Source: an uncultured Myxococcales bacterium | Lineage (GTDB): Bacteria; Myxococcota_A; UBA9042 | DNA: 64,000 nucleotides | Assembly: GCA_903919145.1 (NCBI GenBank) | Contig: CAIXGW010000041.1 | Coordinates: forward strand, 1-64,000 | Direction: 5' to 3' | Shown here: positions 17,809 through 24,898 of the stretch, piece after piece | Layout of the letters: each line of letters opens with the position of its first letter | Position numbering within the stretch: the first letter of the stretch is position 1 | Notes under the pieces: model-generated | The model's input: the letters and a program-made list of their open reading frames with translations, nothing else | Database searches by the model: none | Told to the model about the DNA's origin: nothing | Position numbers and translations under genes: made by a program

Positions 17809-20301
17809 TCACAGGGCCCTGCGGCGGCGCAGCCAGCCTACCCCGACCGCGGCCAGGCACAGCAGCCAAGTAGCTCCGGCGCCAGTAGAAGACCGTCCAG
17901 CGGCACAGCCATCGGCCGCCGCGCTCGCCTTGGGCGCTGGCTTGTTGGCCGCGGCACCATCGCTTGCGTCGGCTGCGCTGGCGTCCGCACTGCCCGCGTC
18001 GGTGGTCGGCTGGGCCGGTGCGGCAGTGGGTTCTTCGGCGTAGGTCAGCGTCTTGGGCAACAATTCCTCGGTGGTCGGCTCGCTCTGATCGTCCAAGGGC
18101 GCTGGCGCAAGGCCCGCGGGCTGGGCGCCGGCCTGCCAGAAAACATAAATATCATCAAGCACATACTTGCCAAGACCCCCTTGGCTCAGGCGCACTCGCT
18201 CCAGGCCGCCCCACGGGTCGTTGATCAGCACGCCGCCGTCATCGGCGCCGACGATCAGCACCCAGTGCCAGTCTTCTTTGCTGCCGTAGAAGCTGGCGTT
18301 GCCGCCCGGCCAGTGCACCCCCGCCACCACTGGCATGCCTGACTTCAGCGCGCCGGCAATGAACTTGGCGGCGCTCTCACTGATACAGTCGGCCTTGGCG
18401 CTGTAGCTGTGGGCGGGAACCAGACCTGCGGGCGCTTGCCCCCACAGCACCAGGCACTTGCCAGAGACTTGCTTGCCAGAAAGCTCATAGGTAGTGCCGG
18501 CATAGCCGCCGTGCTTCTTGCGCCAGGCGTTCTCTGTCACCGGGTCGTTGCCGGTCTTGCCATCGACCTCGCGCTCTACGCCCAGCAGCTGGTGCATCAT
18601 CGACAGCGACGTGATGGTGCAGCCCGAGTTGTGGATGGTCAGGCCGGGGCAGGTGCCCAGCTGGTCCGAAAAGTCCTTTTGATTCCAAACTTTCAGACCC
18701 TTGCCGGTCCAGACGTCCAGGCTGCCCTCAAACTGGCCGCAGCCGTTGGCGCTGGAGACTTTGAGCGAGCCGGTCGGCGGCTTGGGCGCGGCCCCGCTGT
18801 CTGGCATGGCGGGTTGGCAGAGGTCGGCTTGGCCGGCGGGCATCGCCTTGCAGCCGCCCGGGCAGGCAAAAGTCGAGGTGGCGGTGCCGCCGGAGCACTC
18901 GGTCAGCAGCGGGCCGTCACACCAGCCTCCATCAGATTTTCCTGAGCAGAAACAGGCTCCTTTGACCTTGCAGGCGGCCGCGGCTGGGGCCGGCTGACCG
19001 CAGCCCTTGGCGCAAGAGACCGCCTTGCCGACTTGGCCACCCACGCACTGGACCAGATCGGCGCCAGAGCACCAGGTGCCGTCGGTCTTGCCCGAACAGG
19101 GCCCAGCGCCAGAGGTTTTGCAGGCGTCGGGCACCCCGGGGGGCATGGGGATGCAGCCGCTGGGGCAGCTGAAGGCCCCTGCCATGGCCCCGCCTTTGCA
19201 GGTCAAGAGCTTGTCTCCGCTGCACCACGCGCCGTCGGCCTTGCCCGCACAGGCCTTGGTGGGGTCAAACGGCGGCGGGGCACAGGCGTCGGCGGCGCCA
19301 GCCGGGTGTTCCAGGCAGCCCTGGGCACAGTCCTTGCTGCCCACGACCTGGCCCCCCTTGCAGATCCTCAGCAATTGGTCTTGACACCACGGGCCATCGC
19401 CCTTGCCGGTGCAGGGGCCGTTGGGCAGCGGCGCCGGCTTGCACTGGTCGGCGACGCCGGCGGGTTGCTGCTGGCAGCCGTAGCTGCAGCTCTGGGCCGT
19501 GGCCACCTTGCCCGCTTGGCACTGCAGCAGCTGATCGCCGTCGCAGAAGCCGCCGTCGCCCTTGCCGGCGCAGGGGCCCGTGGCTGAGGGCGCCGCCTTG
19601 CACTGGTCAGCCACGCCCGGCGGCATCGACTGGCAGCCGTACGGGCAGAGCTGCGAAGCGGCCGTCTGGCCACCTTTGCACTGCAGCAGCTTGTCGGCGT
19701 CGCACCAGCTGCCATCGACCTTGGTGCTGCACGGGCCCGGCGCGGCAGGGCTGGCCTTGCAGATGTCGCTGACACCCGGTGGCTTTTGCTCGCAGCCGTT
19801 GGCACAGCTCTGGCTAGATGCGACCCCACCGGCTTTGCACTGCAGCAAATTGTCGCCGTCGCACCAGGCGCCATCGGCCTTGCCACTGCACGGCCCGCTG
19901 GGGGCTGGCGCGCCTTTGCACAGATCGGCCGTGCCGGCGGGCATCGACTGGCAGCCGTAGGGGCACGGCTTGGTCGAAGCGACCGCGCCGCCGCTGCACA
20001 TCAGCAAATTGCTGCCGTCGCACCAGGCGCCGTTCTGCTTGCCGGCACAGGGGCCGCTGGGGTTGGCGCACTTGTCTGGCACGCCTGGCGGCATGGAGAC
20101 GCAGCCGGCGCCGCAGCTCTGGCTGGCCGCGGTGCTGCCGCTCTTGCAGGTCACCAGGTTGTTGCCGTCGCACCACAGGCCATTTTGCTTGCCGGTGCAG
20201 AAGGCGGCCTGAGCTGGCGCGGCCCACAAGAGGCCACTGGCCGTCAGCACCATGCCGACCAGGACCGCGCCGGTTGCGCTGAACAGTCTGGAAAAAAACA
20301 T
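17809..20301 (-). CDS. Secreted multi-repeat Cys-rich protein with C39-like peptidase domain and MYXO-CTERM-like anchor
   Basis: Signal peptide MFFSRLFSATGAVLVGMVLTASGLLWAAPAQA; nine ~50-aa CxGKxDGxWCDGxxLLxCxGG repeats; GLTIHNSGCTITSLSMM...HWVLIVGADDGGVLINDPW; C-terminal DGCAAGRSSTGAGATWLLCLAAVGVGWLRRRRAL. Confidence 0.8.
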   Translation of the reverse strand: MFFSRLFSATGAVLVGMVLTASGLLWAAPAQAAFCTGKQNGLWCDGNNLVTCKSGSTAASQSCGAGCVSMPPGVPDKCANPSGPCAGKQNGAWCDGSNLLMCSGGAVASTKPCPYGCQSMPAGTADLCKGAPAPSGPCSGKADGAWCDGDNLLQCKAGGVASSQSCANGCEQKPPGVSDICKASPAAPGPCSTKVDGSWCDADKLLQCKGGQTAASQLCPYGCQSMPPGVADQCKAAPSATGPCAGKGDGGFCDGDQLLQCQAGKVATAQSCSYGCQQQPAGVADQCKPAPLPNGPCTGKGDGPWCQDQLLRICKGGQVVGSKDCAQGCLEHPAGAADACAPPPFDPTKACAGKADGAWCSGDKLLTCKGGAMAGAFSCPSGCIPMPPGVPDACKTSGAGPCSGKTDGTWCSGADLVQCVGGQVGKAVSCAKGCGQPAPAAAACKVKGACFCSGKSDGGWCDGPLLTECSGGTATSTFACPGGCKAMPAGQADLCQPAMPDSGAAPKPPTGSLKVSSANGCGQFEGSLDVWTGKGLKVWNQKDFSDQLGTCPGLTIHNSGCTITSLSMMHQLLGVEREVDGKTGNDPVTENAWRKKHGGYAGTTYELSGKQVSGKCLVLWGQAPAGLVPAHSYSAKADCISESAAKFIAGALKSGMPVVAGVHWPGGNASFYGSKEDWHWVLIVGADDGGVLINDPWGGLERVRLSQGGLGKYVLDDIYVFWQAGAQPAGLAPAPLDDQSEPTTEELLPKTLTYAEEPTAAPAQPTTDAGSADASAADASDGAAANKPAPKASAAADGCAAGRSSTGAGATWLLCLAAVGVGWLRRRRAL

Positions 20302-20767
20302 GGTTGCCTCCATTGGCACCCAAGGCCGCAACCTTGATCCGCTTGGCACGCGGACCTTGCTCTCAGGCCTTGGGCCCTGCTGCTGGGCCCTTTCATAGCC
20401 CCATCAAAGGCGGATCCAGAACCCGGAGCCAACCTAGGACATGGGGTAATAGCTGCGCCGCGGCTGCCCGTGGGGCTGGCTGCAGCGCCGAGCGTCGCGC
20501 TTTTTGCCGGGATTTTCAACGCCTGCTGCTGGCAGGGCCGTCCGTCGGGGTCTAGGGGTCCCAGCAACGCGGCTGGCGCCGCCGTGGGCAGGCCATCCGC
20601 AAGCGCACGACCCAGAAGCCTTCGATTTGGCCGTAAGCCCGTGGGCGAGCCGCTCGGACCTTGACAGTCGGCGGCGCCCCTCGCTTACTCTTGTCCTCTG
20701 GCTACACAGACCGCTGGGCTTGGACCTGGTGCTCTGGTCAAAGGCCGTGATTTCTTTAGAGGTCGCC

Positions 20768-21607
20768 ATGGACATGGTCTGGACTGTAACAATGCTTCTG
20801 CCGGTCGCCGCCGGCGTGGTGCTCGGCGTGGGCTCTGCAGTGCGGCGCCTGGCAGGGCGGCCGCGGCCGGGGCCAGACAATCAGGCGTCGCTGCTGTCTC
20901 GCGCTGGCGAAGTGGTGGCGGCTCTGCTGATCGGCGGTGCGGTGGTCGATGGCGCTGTGCGCGGTCAAGACCTGCTGGTCGATGTGCAGTGGACAATCAC
21001 CTTTGCCTTGGCGGCCGCGCTGGTGCAGATCTCCTTGGTGGCTGCCGGCATGCGCTTGATGGTCGGCGGGGCGCTGCCCAAGCTGTTGAGCCAAGGCAAC
21101 CTGGCCGCCGGGCTGTTGGCCGCAGGTCAAGAGCTGGCAACGGCGCTGGTGGTCGGCCACGCCTTGGTGGGGGCTGACTGGGCGGCGCTGGTGCCAGGGC
21201 TGGCCTTTGCGATCATCGGCTGGTTGGCGATGCAGCTGCTGGTGGCGGCCTTTCGCGCCTTGACGCCGTGGGATGATGCCGAGCACATCGCCGATGGCAA
21301 CGCCGCCTCCGCACTGTCTGGCGCGGGTCTGGTGCTGGCGGTCGGCCTGCTGGTCAGCCATGCGACGTCTGGTGAATTTGATGGCTGGGCCGCCTCGCTG
21401 CAGGCCTTTGCCGAGACCTGCGGCTTTGCGCTGTTGCTGGTGCCGGTGCGCGTCCTGTTCATTCAGGGCTTGCTGCTGCGCGGCGGGCTGCGCTGGCGCC
21501 ACGGCCTGCTCGACCAGCTGGTGGGCCAGCAGCGCAACCTTGGCGCCGCCGCCCTGGAAGCGGCCGGCTACGTCGGCACGGCCCTGGCGCTGCGGGCGGT
21601 GCTCTAG
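20768..21607 (+). CDS. DUF350-like integral membrane protein (two repeats)
   Basis: Duplicated multi-TM units with LSQGNLAAGLLAAGQELATALVV and IADGNAASALSGAGLVLAVGLLV. Confidence 0.7.
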   Translation: MDMVWTVTMLLPVAAGVVLGVGSAVRRLAGRPRPGPDNQASLLSRAGEVVAALLIGGAVVDGAVRGQDLLVDVQWTITFALAAALVQISLVAAGMRLMVGGALPKLLSQGNLAAGLLAAGQELATALVVGHALVGADWAALVPGLAFAIIGWLAMQLLVAAFRALTPWDDAEHIADGNAASALSGAGLVLAVGLLVSHATSGEFDGWAASLQAFAETCGFALLLVPVRVLFIQGLLLRGGLRWRHGLLDQLVGQQRNLGAAALEAAGYVGTALALRAVL

Positions 21608-21610
21608 CCA

Positions 21611-22918
21611 ATGCAGCCAAGCGCCCCTCTTGCCCCAGCTGCGCCCGTGCTTGCGGCCCTGGCGCCCGTTGACGACCAGGCCTACGCTGCACTGGCTCAG
21701 CGGATTATTGCCGATGGCTGGCTGCCCGACCCGTGGATCGACGGCTCGCCGCGCTTTGACCCGCAGGCCCTGGCACTGCCGGTCAGCCGAGTGGCCGCTC
21801 TGACCCGCGCTGCCGAGTCGGTCGCCGCGGCTTGTGACGAACTGTGCCGGCTGTGCGCCCAGAACCCGCAGCTGCTAGAGGGCCTGGCGATGACGCCATG
21901 GCAGCGCGCCATGTGGTTGGCCACGGCTCCGCTGTGGCATGGCTTGGCCCGGGCCGACGTTTTTGAGGTCGGCGACGGTGCCATTCAAGTTTGTGAAATC
22001 AATAGCGACACTCCCTCGGGCATGGCCGAAGCGGTGGTGCTCGGGCGGCTGCTGGCGGGCGAGCGCGATGCCAACCGCCACCTGCTGCGCCGCTGGGTGG
22101 AATTGGTGCGACAGGTGGCGCCGCCCACTGCGGGTCTGATCGGCCCGCCGGTTGCCGGCTTGCTGTGGCCGACCGAGCAGACCGAAGACCTGCCGATGCT
22201 GCTGATGTGGCAGCACGGCTTGGAGCAGGCGGGCTGGCAGGTGGTGCGCGGGTCGCCATTCAACCTGACGCTGGCCGCCGATGGCCGCGCGGCGCTGTTG
22301 GGCCAACCCTGCGATGTCATGGTGCGCCACTACAAGACCGACTGGTGGGGAGAGCGCCTGCCGGTGTGGCGAGACGAGGCGCGCCTGCCTGACACGGCGC
22401 CGCTGGCCCAGCAATTGGCGGTGCTGATGGAGGCGGGCTGGGCGGGCCGCACCGTCACCCTCAACCCCCTGGGGGCCGCTCTGCCGCAAAACAAGCGCTT
22501 CTACGCGTTGCTGTGGCAGATCCTTCGCGACCAGCCTGAGCAATTCAGCGCCGAGGCCCGCCAGGCGATCCGCGCGCACGTGCCGCCGACGTGGCGCCTT
22601 GAGGATCTGAGCACCGATCAGCTGCAGACCGAGCGCGAGCAGTGGGTCTTGAAGTCCGACTACGGCTGCGAAGGCGATGAGGTGGTGCTAGGCTGCCAAG
22701 TCACGCCGCTGGTGTGGGCGCAAGCGCTGGCCCAGGCGATACCGGGGCGCTGGGTGGCGCAACGGCGCTTCGATGCCGCGGTCGATCCAGAGGGCGCGCA
22801 GGTCAACTACGGCGTGTACTTGATCGGCGGGCAGGCTGCGGGCCTGCTGGCGCGGCGCTCGCCAGGAGCGACGGACCGGATGGCGCGGATGGCGGCAGTA
22901 GCCATCACACGGGAGTAG
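21611..22918 (+). CDS. Glutathionylspermidine synthase-like ATP-grasp amidoligase (GSP_synth, YgiC/YjfC-like)
   Basis: IQVCEINSDTPSGMAEA; HYKTDWWGERLPVW; WVLKSDYGCEGDEVVLG; VAQRRFDA. Confidence 0.8.
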   Translation: MQPSAPLAPAAPVLAALAPVDDQAYAALAQRIIADGWLPDPWIDGSPRFDPQALALPVSRVAALTRAAESVAAACDELCRLCAQNPQLLEGLAMTPWQRAMWLATAPLWHGLARADVFEVGDGAIQVCEINSDTPSGMAEAVVLGRLLAGERDANRHLLRRWVELVRQVAPPTAGLIGPPVAGLLWPTEQTEDLPMLLMWQHGLEQAGWQVVRGSPFNLTLAADGRAALLGQPCDVMVRHYKTDWWGERLPVWRDEARLPDTAPLAQQLAVLMEAGWAGRTVTLNPLGAALPQNKRFYALLWQILRDQPEQFSAEARQAIRAHVPPTWRLEDLSTDQLQTEREQWVLKSDYGCEGDEVVLGCQVTPLVWAQALAQAIPGRWVAQRRFDAAVDPEGAQVNYGVYLIGGQAAGLLARRSPGATDRMARMAAVAITRE

Positions 22919-22921
22919 TGG

Positions 22922-24274
22922 ATGACCGAGCCCAACAAGCCAATAGAACGCTTGGCCTTCTTTGACGAGCCCCAGCTGGTTGGCGCGCGCTGGTGGCAGC
23001 CGTCCGTTACCAGCTCGGCGGCGAGTTCGGTCAGCCGCCGCGCGGTGTTGGCGATTGTCGGCGGGTTCATTGGCATCCCGCTGTTGGTCGGCGTCGCTCA
23101 AACGTGCAGCAGTGAAGACGACGATCTGCCAGACGCCAATGCCCAGCTGCGCGCCCTTGAACTGCAGCAGGCCGAGGGTTGGGACGTCGGCAGCAAAGAC
23201 AAGCTGTGGCCGCCTCAGGACTTTGTCGATACCGACGTCGATGGCAGCACCGGCTGGCAGGCGCACGTGACCACGCTGCCCCAAGATTTTGCCGCCGGAT
23301 TGACCTACCAGTCCTGGCAGGTTCCCACCTTGTTGCAGATGCCTGGCTTGCCGGTCAATGCGTCTTTGGCCAAGCGACTCAAGCCTTTGCGCGATGCCGG
23401 GGTGACCAGCGGCTGGCGAATTGGCCGCGGCGTGGCCCACCTGTGGGCGCAGCTGCCCCAGCCGCCGATGGACACCTTGCTGGTCGTGGACTTGCCGGGG
23501 GCGCAAGCCGTGGCGGTGGCTGCGGCGCTGAGTGATCTGCTGGTGCCGGTGTGGGTTCTGGACGGCTGCCCCCATCCGCTGGGCGTGGTGCCCTGGCAGC
23601 GCACGCTGGGGGCCATGCTGTACCTGCTGCCGGAATTCAACAGGCAGAAAGCGCGTCGACCCCTGGCGGCACCACCCATGCTGGTCCTGGACGGCCAGCG
23701 ACTGGCCCCCTACAGCGATGAAGCCAGCCAATTCGACAACCGCAGCCTTGCCCAGCTGCCCCAGCCGCAGCAGCTGCAAAGTGCTGGTATTGCGCGGGTA
23801 TTGCTGCTGACCGACCTGACCCACGACCGCGACGACCTCAACACTCAGCTGGAGGCCATGGTCGCCAAAGGCATCGACGTGCGCCTGCTTCATGCCGGCG
23901 ATTTCAGCGGTGCGCTGCGCCAGGTGCCTGGGGATGCCCAGACCATGGAGTTGACTGCAGAAGAGCTGCAGTCGCTAGAATCCGGTGTGCCGGCTGGTCT
24001 TTTTGATCCCATGCTGCGCTGCCGTTTTGGCCCTTCGCCTGCCCATGAGCTGGCTTTCTGGCACATGCTCGGCTGGCATCTGGCCGCCCAGCCGCTGCCG
24101 CCCGGCGTCTACCCGACTCCGACCATGGCCTGGCGAATTGCCCCGCGCTACAGCGGCGCGCTGCGGGTTGGCAGCGTGCGCTATGGCCGCTGGCGCCCCT
24201 ACAGCCGCTCTTTTGGCTCTTCTAGTTCGCGCAGTGGGTCTTGGACGCGCAGCGGTGGCTCGTCTTTTGGGTGA
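22922..24274 (+). CDS. Membrane-anchored protein with Ser/Gly/Arg-rich C-terminal tail, encoded in the GSP-synthase operon
   Basis: One TM (RRAVLAIVGGFIGIPLLVGVAQTC); tail RSFGSSSSRSGSWTRSGGSSFG; tightly packed behind the GSP synthase gene. Confidence 0.65.
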   Translation: MTEPNKPIERLAFFDEPQLVGARWWQPSVTSSAASSVSRRAVLAIVGGFIGIPLLVGVAQTCSSEDDDLPDANAQLRALELQQAEGWDVGSKDKLWPPQDFVDTDVDGSTGWQAHVTTLPQDFAAGLTYQSWQVPTLLQMPGLPVNASLAKRLKPLRDAGVTSGWRIGRGVAHLWAQLPQPPMDTLLVVDLPGAQAVAVAAALSDLLVPVWVLDGCPHPLGVVPWQRTLGAMLYLLPEFNRQKARRPLAAPPMLVLDGQRLAPYSDEASQFDNRSLAQLPQPQQLQSAGIARVLLLTDLTHDRDDLNTQLEAMVAKGIDVRLLHAGDFSGALRQVPGDAQTMELTAEELQSLESGVPAGLFDPMLRCRFGPSPAHELAFWHMLGWHLAAQPLPPGVYPTPTMAWRIAPRYSGALRVGSVRYGRWRPYSRSFGSSSSRSGSWTRSGGSSFG

Positions 24275-24337
24275 AGCCAGCTGGCCAATTCTGTGGCCAA
24301 AACCTGGATTTTCTGCAGGCAATTGAGAGAGGCGACA

Positions 24338-24898
24338 ATGGCGTGGACGTTCTTTTCGCTGCAGATGGCCTTTGAGTCGCGGCCCGACGACACCTGGCGG
24401 CGCCATGTGCGCAATGCCATTGTCAGCGGTCAGGCCAACCAAGATGCCGAAGACAAGCGCAGGTTCTACCAGGAGCTGGTGCCGTTGCTGGTCGGCCGCC
24501 TGCCGCAGCTGCGCCGGGTGGCGTGGGACTTGCAGCGGACCGCCTCTACCCAAGCCGATTTTGACGAGTGGGTCACCGACTTGGAAGACAGCAGCGATGT
24601 CGAGCCCCCTGACCCCACTGCTGCCGAGCAAGAGGCGCGCCACGTGGTCGTGACGCTGCTGGTCTTGGCCGCTGGCGGCGGCAACGCGGACCAAGCGCTA
24701 GGAGAAGCCTGTGATTTTCCAGAAGATCGTTGGCTCAAGCGCCAGTCCCTGGCTCGGATCCTCAGCGTGGTGCCGATGTTGAGCTTCAGCTCCGTGCGCA
24801 GCGATGCCGTCTACCTGCAGCCCGGCCGCGGCCTTCCCGGCATGACGGCAGAGGAGCTGGAAGAGGGCTGGGTCGATATGGCGCTGGTTGAAGACTAA
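24338..24898 (+). CDS. DUF1517-like protein
   Basis: MAWTFFSLQMAFESRPDDTWRRHVRNAI ... EARHVVVTLLVLAAGGGN, resembling the DUF1517 pattern; same operon. Confidence 0.45.
   Translation: MAWTFFSLQMAFESRPDDTWRRHVRNAIVSGQANQDAEDKRRFYQELVPLLVGRLPQLRRVAWDLQRTASTQADFDEWVTDLEDSSDVEPPDPTAAEQEARHVVVTLLVLAAGGGNADQALGEACDFPEDRWLKRQSLARILSVVPMLSFSSVRSDAVYLQPGRGLPGMTAEELEEGWVDMALVED

Follow-up and report, generated by a model that had tools for sequence, protein, structure and literature searches.

A candidate C-terminal tail amidoligation system encoded by a GSP_synth operon of an uncultured Myxococcales bacterium

The association of a DUF350 protein, a GSP_synth ligase, and a partner protein bearing a C-terminal tail is already known from Escherichia coli, in which the YjfL–YjfM–YjfC and YgiB–YgiC systems bring together DUF350, a DUF1190 lipoprotein, and a peptide–spermidine ligase. 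The last of these is the RefSeq annotation of both YgiC and YjfC, and traces to Pederick et al. (2023), as cited in PMC12568646. Both enzymes are active as such ligases, but no name for the natural substrate of either was found in the literature accessible to this analysis. Here, a related operon of four genes is described from an uncultured Myxococcales bacterium, where it lies in a stretch of 64,000 nucleotides (the window) on contig C41 of a 7.0-Mb assembly (404 contigs, 93% complete). The operon encodes a DUF350 membrane protein (gene 1), a GSP_synth-type ATP-grasp amidoligase (gene 2), a protein with a conserved C-terminal tail (gene 3), and a DUF1517-like protein (gene 4), and probably constitutes a substrate-dedicated system for C-terminal tail amidoligation, with a polyamine most likely as the added group and with subsequent export of a twin-arginine translocation (Tat)-like kind.

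The operon resembles the yjf and ygi systems in its ligase family and its DUF350 neighbor, and the exported partners in E. coli likewise end in a patterned tail, R-x-G-[FYW]-G...GG. In contrast, the partner in the window is an unrelated 450-residue protein with a predicted α/β core rather than a DUF1190 protein, its tail reads RSGS[WF]xR as opposed to SRGGFG, and the operon includes a DUF1517-like gene and lacks PspA, YjfI, and YjfK. PspA-associated operons containing DUF350, a GSP-synthetase-like ATP-grasp protein, and DUF1190 have been tied to the membrane, including membrane stress, and to polyamines (mSystems 2024; PMC11237479); in the accessible portion of that article the partner is given as DUF1190, and neither the gene 3 family nor common C-terminal tails are mentioned. 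A literature search, outside of which Iyer 2009, Sui 2012, and Pederick 2023 fell, found no mention of the gene 3 family, of the operon with a DUF1517-like gene, or of a tail shared across unrelated partners.

The conserved tail of gene 3 and the gene 2 ligase

The gene 3 product ends in RSFGSSSSRSGSWTRSGGSSFG, as read in the first-pass annotation of this DNA, and the tail follows the pattern R-S-G-S-[W/F]-x-R, then a few small residues and a C-terminal Gly or Ser. A strict form of this motif, [RN]-x-G-[STY]-[FWYLM]-x-R within the last 45 residues, was observed in 65 of 74 gene 3 homologues, as compared with a mean of 0.26 and a maximum of 2 for composition-shuffled tails, and with a relaxed form the count is 72 of 73. 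An alignment of 52 sequences has 17 invariant residues, among them R443 of the tail; the spacer ahead of this Arg varies between 32 and 66 residues, and the stretch after it is 4–10 residues long in 48 of the 52. The final residue of 73 gene 3 proteins is Gly in 47, Ser in 22, Ala in 2, and Leu in 2, with Asp and Glu absent from the last 20 residues in all 73. Between the window and a related locus (L002), 17 of 22 tail codons differ—with Ser codons swapped between TCN and AGY—but only 1 of 22 residues, and the whole proteins are 47% identical, indicating selection on the amino acid sequence of the tail. Comparable tails were found in 42 of 48 gene 3 homologues versus none of 620 other genes of these loci, the latter count resting on a simple open reading frame caller. 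Mere low complexity was ruled out by the shuffles, the background genes, and the codon comparison, and a one-lineage oddity by the spread of the tail over phyla.

When gene 2 was used in a single scan of about 85,000 species genomes, 80 loci were retrieved, the closest to the window set belonging to uncultured Myxococcales and Deltaproteobacteria, and the whole spanning Myxococcota, Ignavibacteria, Chlorobi, Acidobacteria, Planctomycetota, Entotheonella, and others. Profile searches of 81 loci (the window's included) detected gene 3 in 56 and gene 4 in 48; in many Polyangia, genes 3 and 4 lie nearby on the strand opposite genes 1 and 2. Where the ligase locus lacked gene 3, it was present elsewhere in 22 of 25 genomes, and the 3 genomes with no gene 3 may be incomplete. 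Furthermore, GSP_synth was found in 15 of 141 Myxococcota genomes and gene 3 in 14, all of them among the 15; the remaining genome (G052; L110:5029-5680), which lacks gene 3, was rejected as a counter-example, its GSP_synth being a decayed GspS-like fragment with a stop. In a second class (119 genomes), gene 3 and the gene 2 subfamily were found in exactly the same 7 genomes. The corresponding hypergeometric values (2e-18 for Myxococcota and 2e-11 for the second class) ignore shared ancestry and are rough. No gene 3 was found on plasmids. The set is conserved across phyla; an operon not kept in relatives, one of the refuting conditions of the first-pass annotation, was thereby rejected.

Gene 2 had been called GSP-synthase-like, an assignment borne out by Pfam (48.9 bits; curated cut-off, 29.3). 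E. coli GspSA shares with it the ATP-grasp synthetase fold family and the catalytic Arg, Asp, Glu, Asn, and Lys residues. However, the 435-residue gene 2 protein has no N-terminal amidase domain like that fused in GspSA—Pfam returning GSP_synth and a sub-threshold ATP-grasp model—and is linked to a tailed protein. The best PDB relative of the gene 2 profile is YgiC (7uk8, E = 1.8e-4), with GspSA next; a profile was needed, as a phmmer search of the PDB with the single sequence gave no match. Equivalents of GspS R316, D318, E330, N332, K498, K533, and R598, which we take to be the ATP/Mg and carboxylate-binding residues, are invariant in 46 of 46 gene 2 relatives and in the window protein. The metal-site Glu/Asn region of the family, SDTPSG, is closer to the ADTPTS of YgiC than to the ADSASC of GspS, and E192-D193 corresponds to the E-D pair of YgiC and YjfC, whereas GspS has E-N at 392–393.

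Gene 3 is not a member of a known enzyme family carrying an unconserved tail: its tail is strongly conserved, the window protein has no Pfam or NCBIfam family, and none of the 52 family members matches DUF1190. The core (residues ~65–412) was confidently predicted by AlphaFold2 (AF2) as α/β, with the tail predicted to be disordered, and gave no PDB fold match at E ≤ 1e-3; its identification as a known enzyme was rejected on these grounds, the best fold matches (cysteine hydrolases; probability 0.25, TM ≤0.31) being noise. The invariant residues include D190, H218, D257, R260, D272, R274, and D305, which may mark an active site or a metal site of uncertain kind. At the N-terminus, GA[RK]WW and an x-R-R pair, with S, T, or A most often preceding the two Arg residues, are followed by a hydrophobic stretch, an order of consecutive Arg-Arg and hydrophobic segment that Tat substrates have as well, and a lipobox-like Cys is found near the N-terminus in Chlorobi and Entotheonella relatives. 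This region may be a Tat-like signal anchor or a lipoprotein signal.

Tails on other GSP_synth neighbors

Comparable tails were found next to other ligases of the family. In E. coli, YgiB ends in TRGGFG...RSMGG and YjfM in SRGGYGRSSSARGHWGG. In 15 of 16 plasmid GSP_synth neighborhoods, a neighboring protein bears a comparable tail, and this protein is DUF1190 in Vibrio, Rhizobium, Pseudomonas, Aureimonas, Sulfitobacter, Asticcacaulis, Roseomonas, and Tistrella (the last by Pfam). Tailed neighbors outside DUF1190 also occur: those of Acinetobacter, Tsukamurella, Deinococcus, Leptolyngbya, Trichormus, Virgibacillus, and Bacillus in the plasmid survey have no over-threshold Pfam family. Two cyanobacterial plasmid proteins beside GSP_synth (L133:2006-3175 and L134:2272-3402) end in SG[MF]GS.RSGG.SS, with Pfam returning only a sub-threshold Sec8_N. 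Within the second class, four genomes (L146–L149) contain a YgiC-like ligase without gene 3, and just upstream of the ligase a small unclassified protein (~120–175 residues) ending in RGGFG...GA/SA (L147:2738-3094 on the minus strand, for example). In addition, divergent Myxococcota homologues of gene 3 (L105–L108, from genomes G121, G098, G158, and G079), which immediately adjoin GSP_synth and DUF350, have a GGFG..VP.PS...G ending, intermediate in kind between the tails of gene 3 and of DUF1190.

In the DUF1190 alignment, 4 of the 7 invariant residues lie in the tail; an Acinetobacter protein (L130) without a DUF1190 match of its own was included, with slight effect on the result. HHalign comparison of the gene 3 and DUF1190 profiles gave a probability of 4% and no core homology, with the sole alignment returned running from tail to tail. 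Like DUF1190, gene 3 has an R-x-G-[aromatic] tail ending in Gly or Ser, a likeness of kind and not of homology, and the cross-family comparison of tails draws on a small sample judged by eye. With the DUF1190 model, no member was found in the 141 Myxococcota genomes or in the host genome. The earlier suggestion that gene 3 is an unrelated replacement for DUF1190 fits this absence, the lack of core homology, and the alignment of tails only.

Similar tails on unrelated GSP_synth neighbors suggest a widespread, overlooked form of C-terminal tagging. In its broadest form, the proposal would be that GSP_synth ligases are a bacteria-wide C-terminal tagging machinery, each with a dedicated exported protein, that amidation (polyamination) of envelope protein C-termini is general, and that the same kind of short C-terminal tail, serving for both recognition and acceptance, is carried by six or more partner families with no apparent relationship; this generalization is tentative, and is judged slightly less probable than its contrary. 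The partner families counted are gene 3, DUF1190, and the uncharacterized partners in the second class, Actinomycetota, Deinococcota, Cyanobacteriota, and Bacillota.

Operon layout and accessory genes

The four genes are co-directional and lie where the first-pass annotation had placed them (Table 1), with its spacings of 3, 3, and 63 bp exact and with start and stop codons checked. Its claim of a duplicated DUF350 domain in gene 1 is consistent with the two stretches matched by Pfam. The DUF1517-like assignment of gene 4 comes through its relatives (best match, 1.9e-7), as the window protein itself has no Pfam match. The AF2 model of gene 4 has a predicted local distance difference test (pLDDT) value of 92, with no PDB match to the fold. 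Gene 4 was never observed without gene 3 in the scanned loci, and stays with gene 3 even where genes 1 and 2 lie apart.

Table 1. Positions of the operon genes and of the gene 3 elements in the window
Feature	Position	Strand	Basis
Gene 1, DUF350 membrane protein, duplicated domain	20768..21607	+	ATG to TAG; Pfam PF03994 1.5e-17, two stretches; adjoins gene 2 in relatives
Gene 2, GSP_synth-type ATP-grasp amidoligase	21611..22918	+	ATG to TAG; PF03738 7.3e-13; profile match to YgiC/GspSA
Gene 3, tailed, membrane-anchored or exported, putative acceptor	22922..24274	+	ATG to TGA; conserved family A1 (52 members)
Gene 3 twin-arginine-like pair R39-R40 and hydrophobic segment	23036..23101	+	x-R-R aligned in 51/52
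Gene 3 C-terminal tail, residues 429–450, RSFGSSSSRSGSWTRSGGSSFG	24206..24271	+	Motif, invariant R443, codon-level selection, predicted disorder
Gene 4, DUF1517-like, partner of gene 3	24338..24898	+	ATG to TAA; 10/47 homologues match PF07466

Elsewhere in the window, an 846-residue secreted protein with many Cys-rich repeats is encoded at 17809-20349 on the minus strand; it contains a C39-like peptidase domain (Pfam 2.1e-8), and its C-terminus resembles a MYXO-CTERM sorting tail.

Proposed mechanism, alternatives, and significance

In the proposed mechanism, the gene 2 ligase would act in the cytosol, binding the disordered C-terminus of gene 3 (R-S-G-S-[W/F]-x-R...G/S-COOH) and using ATP to phosphorylate its terminal carboxylate, which in nearly all relatives is the only one in the last 20 residues. 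An amine would then be joined on through an amide bond; spermidine, or a polyamine like it, is the most likely candidate. Amidation is placed in the cytosol, before export, because ATP is needed. The twin-arginine-like N-terminus would subsequently direct export of the folded, tagged protein, which would be retained at the membrane, where DUF350 and the DUF1517-like gene 4 product may act as partners. The C-terminus of gene 3 as acceptor and a polyamine as the amine are suggested by analogy with the enzyme family: in the GspS reaction, the C-terminus of glutathione is phosphorylated and spermidine is then added through N1 (PMC6272389). The C-terminal Gly of small ubiquitin-like modifier (SUMO) is amidated by spermidine (+127.147 Da), and conjugation of SUMO and ubiquitin is likewise an ATP-driven amide formation between a C-terminal Gly carboxylate and spermidine; unlike gene 2, however, it depends on eukaryotic E1/E2 without an ATP-grasp ligase, and is a chemical precedent only (PMC12270671). 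The earlier proposal of a tail modification system is supported on its genomic side, where the gene order and its conservation, the intact catalytic residues, the selection on the tail, the matched phylogenetic profiles, and the recurring tails were observed directly.

Several observations weigh against tail amidoligation as proposed. Gene 2 is a distant relative of YgiC (<30% identity by eye), and its HYKTDWW stretch is nearer to GspS. The tails of the divergent gene 3 homologues contain acidic residues, and an Azospirillum plasmid (L132:3516-4607) is a real exception, with a GSP_synth gene preceded by a 642-residue hypothetical protein and without a tailed neighbor. In seven Polyangia loci (L007, L011, L023, L037, L041, L044, and L047), the residues immediately before the gene 3 tail form a hydrophobic stretch (e.g., VPVVVALGTGAILGAAL), at a position occupied in other relatives by an Arg/Ser-rich stretch of similar length; thus, the topology may vary, and the tail could return to the cytosol. 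At L033:7280-9241, genes 3 and 4 form one continuous reading frame in which the tail motif is missing, reflecting either a true fusion or an assembly deletion.

The L033 run-on, with its loss of the tail, also speaks for the idea that the tail is a docking element for gene 4, unconnected with the ligase. That idea would likewise explain why gene 4 accompanies gene 3 where genes 1 and 2 lie apart, but similar tails are found beside GSP_synth without an annotated DUF1517 neighbor in E. coli, Vibrio, Bacillus, and cyanobacteria, and docking of this kind is considered very improbable. Somewhat less remote, though still improbable, is the synthesis by the ligase of a free peptide–polyamine metabolite, with the tail serving in membrane, nucleic-acid, or partner binding. 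Indeed, GspSA and its relatives act on glutathione, and tails rich in Arg, Gly, Ser, and aromatic residues are general binding elements; however, a free metabolite leaves unexplained the similar tails on unrelated GSP_synth neighbors, the matched phylogenetic profiles, and the short, near-constant distance from tail to C-terminus. The nature of the added group is a separate matter. The acidic polyamine pocket of GspS is only partly kept in gene 2, with E392 corresponding to E192 and E391 replaced by T/P, and relatives of the operon can have no polyamine genes nearby, both of which would suit a gene 3 tail that receives an amino acid, a peptide, or some other amine of the cell or its envelope. 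Yet YgiC and YjfC, with the same reduced pocket, are annotated as peptide–spermidine ligases, and the host is able to make spermidine, its genome encoding spermidine synthase and S-adenosylmethionine (AdoMet) decarboxylase, so a group other than a polyamine is regarded as unlikely.

Amidoligation of the gene 3 tail, most likely with a polyamine, thus remains the favored reading. The conserved tails point to the substrate of YgiC and YjfC and to the exact residue, namely the C-terminal carboxylate of the tailed neighbor. If true, bacterial envelope proteins would carry a widespread post-translational modification that has gone unrecognized and that is linked with the supply of polyamines and with membrane stress, and several families of unknown function would gain one.

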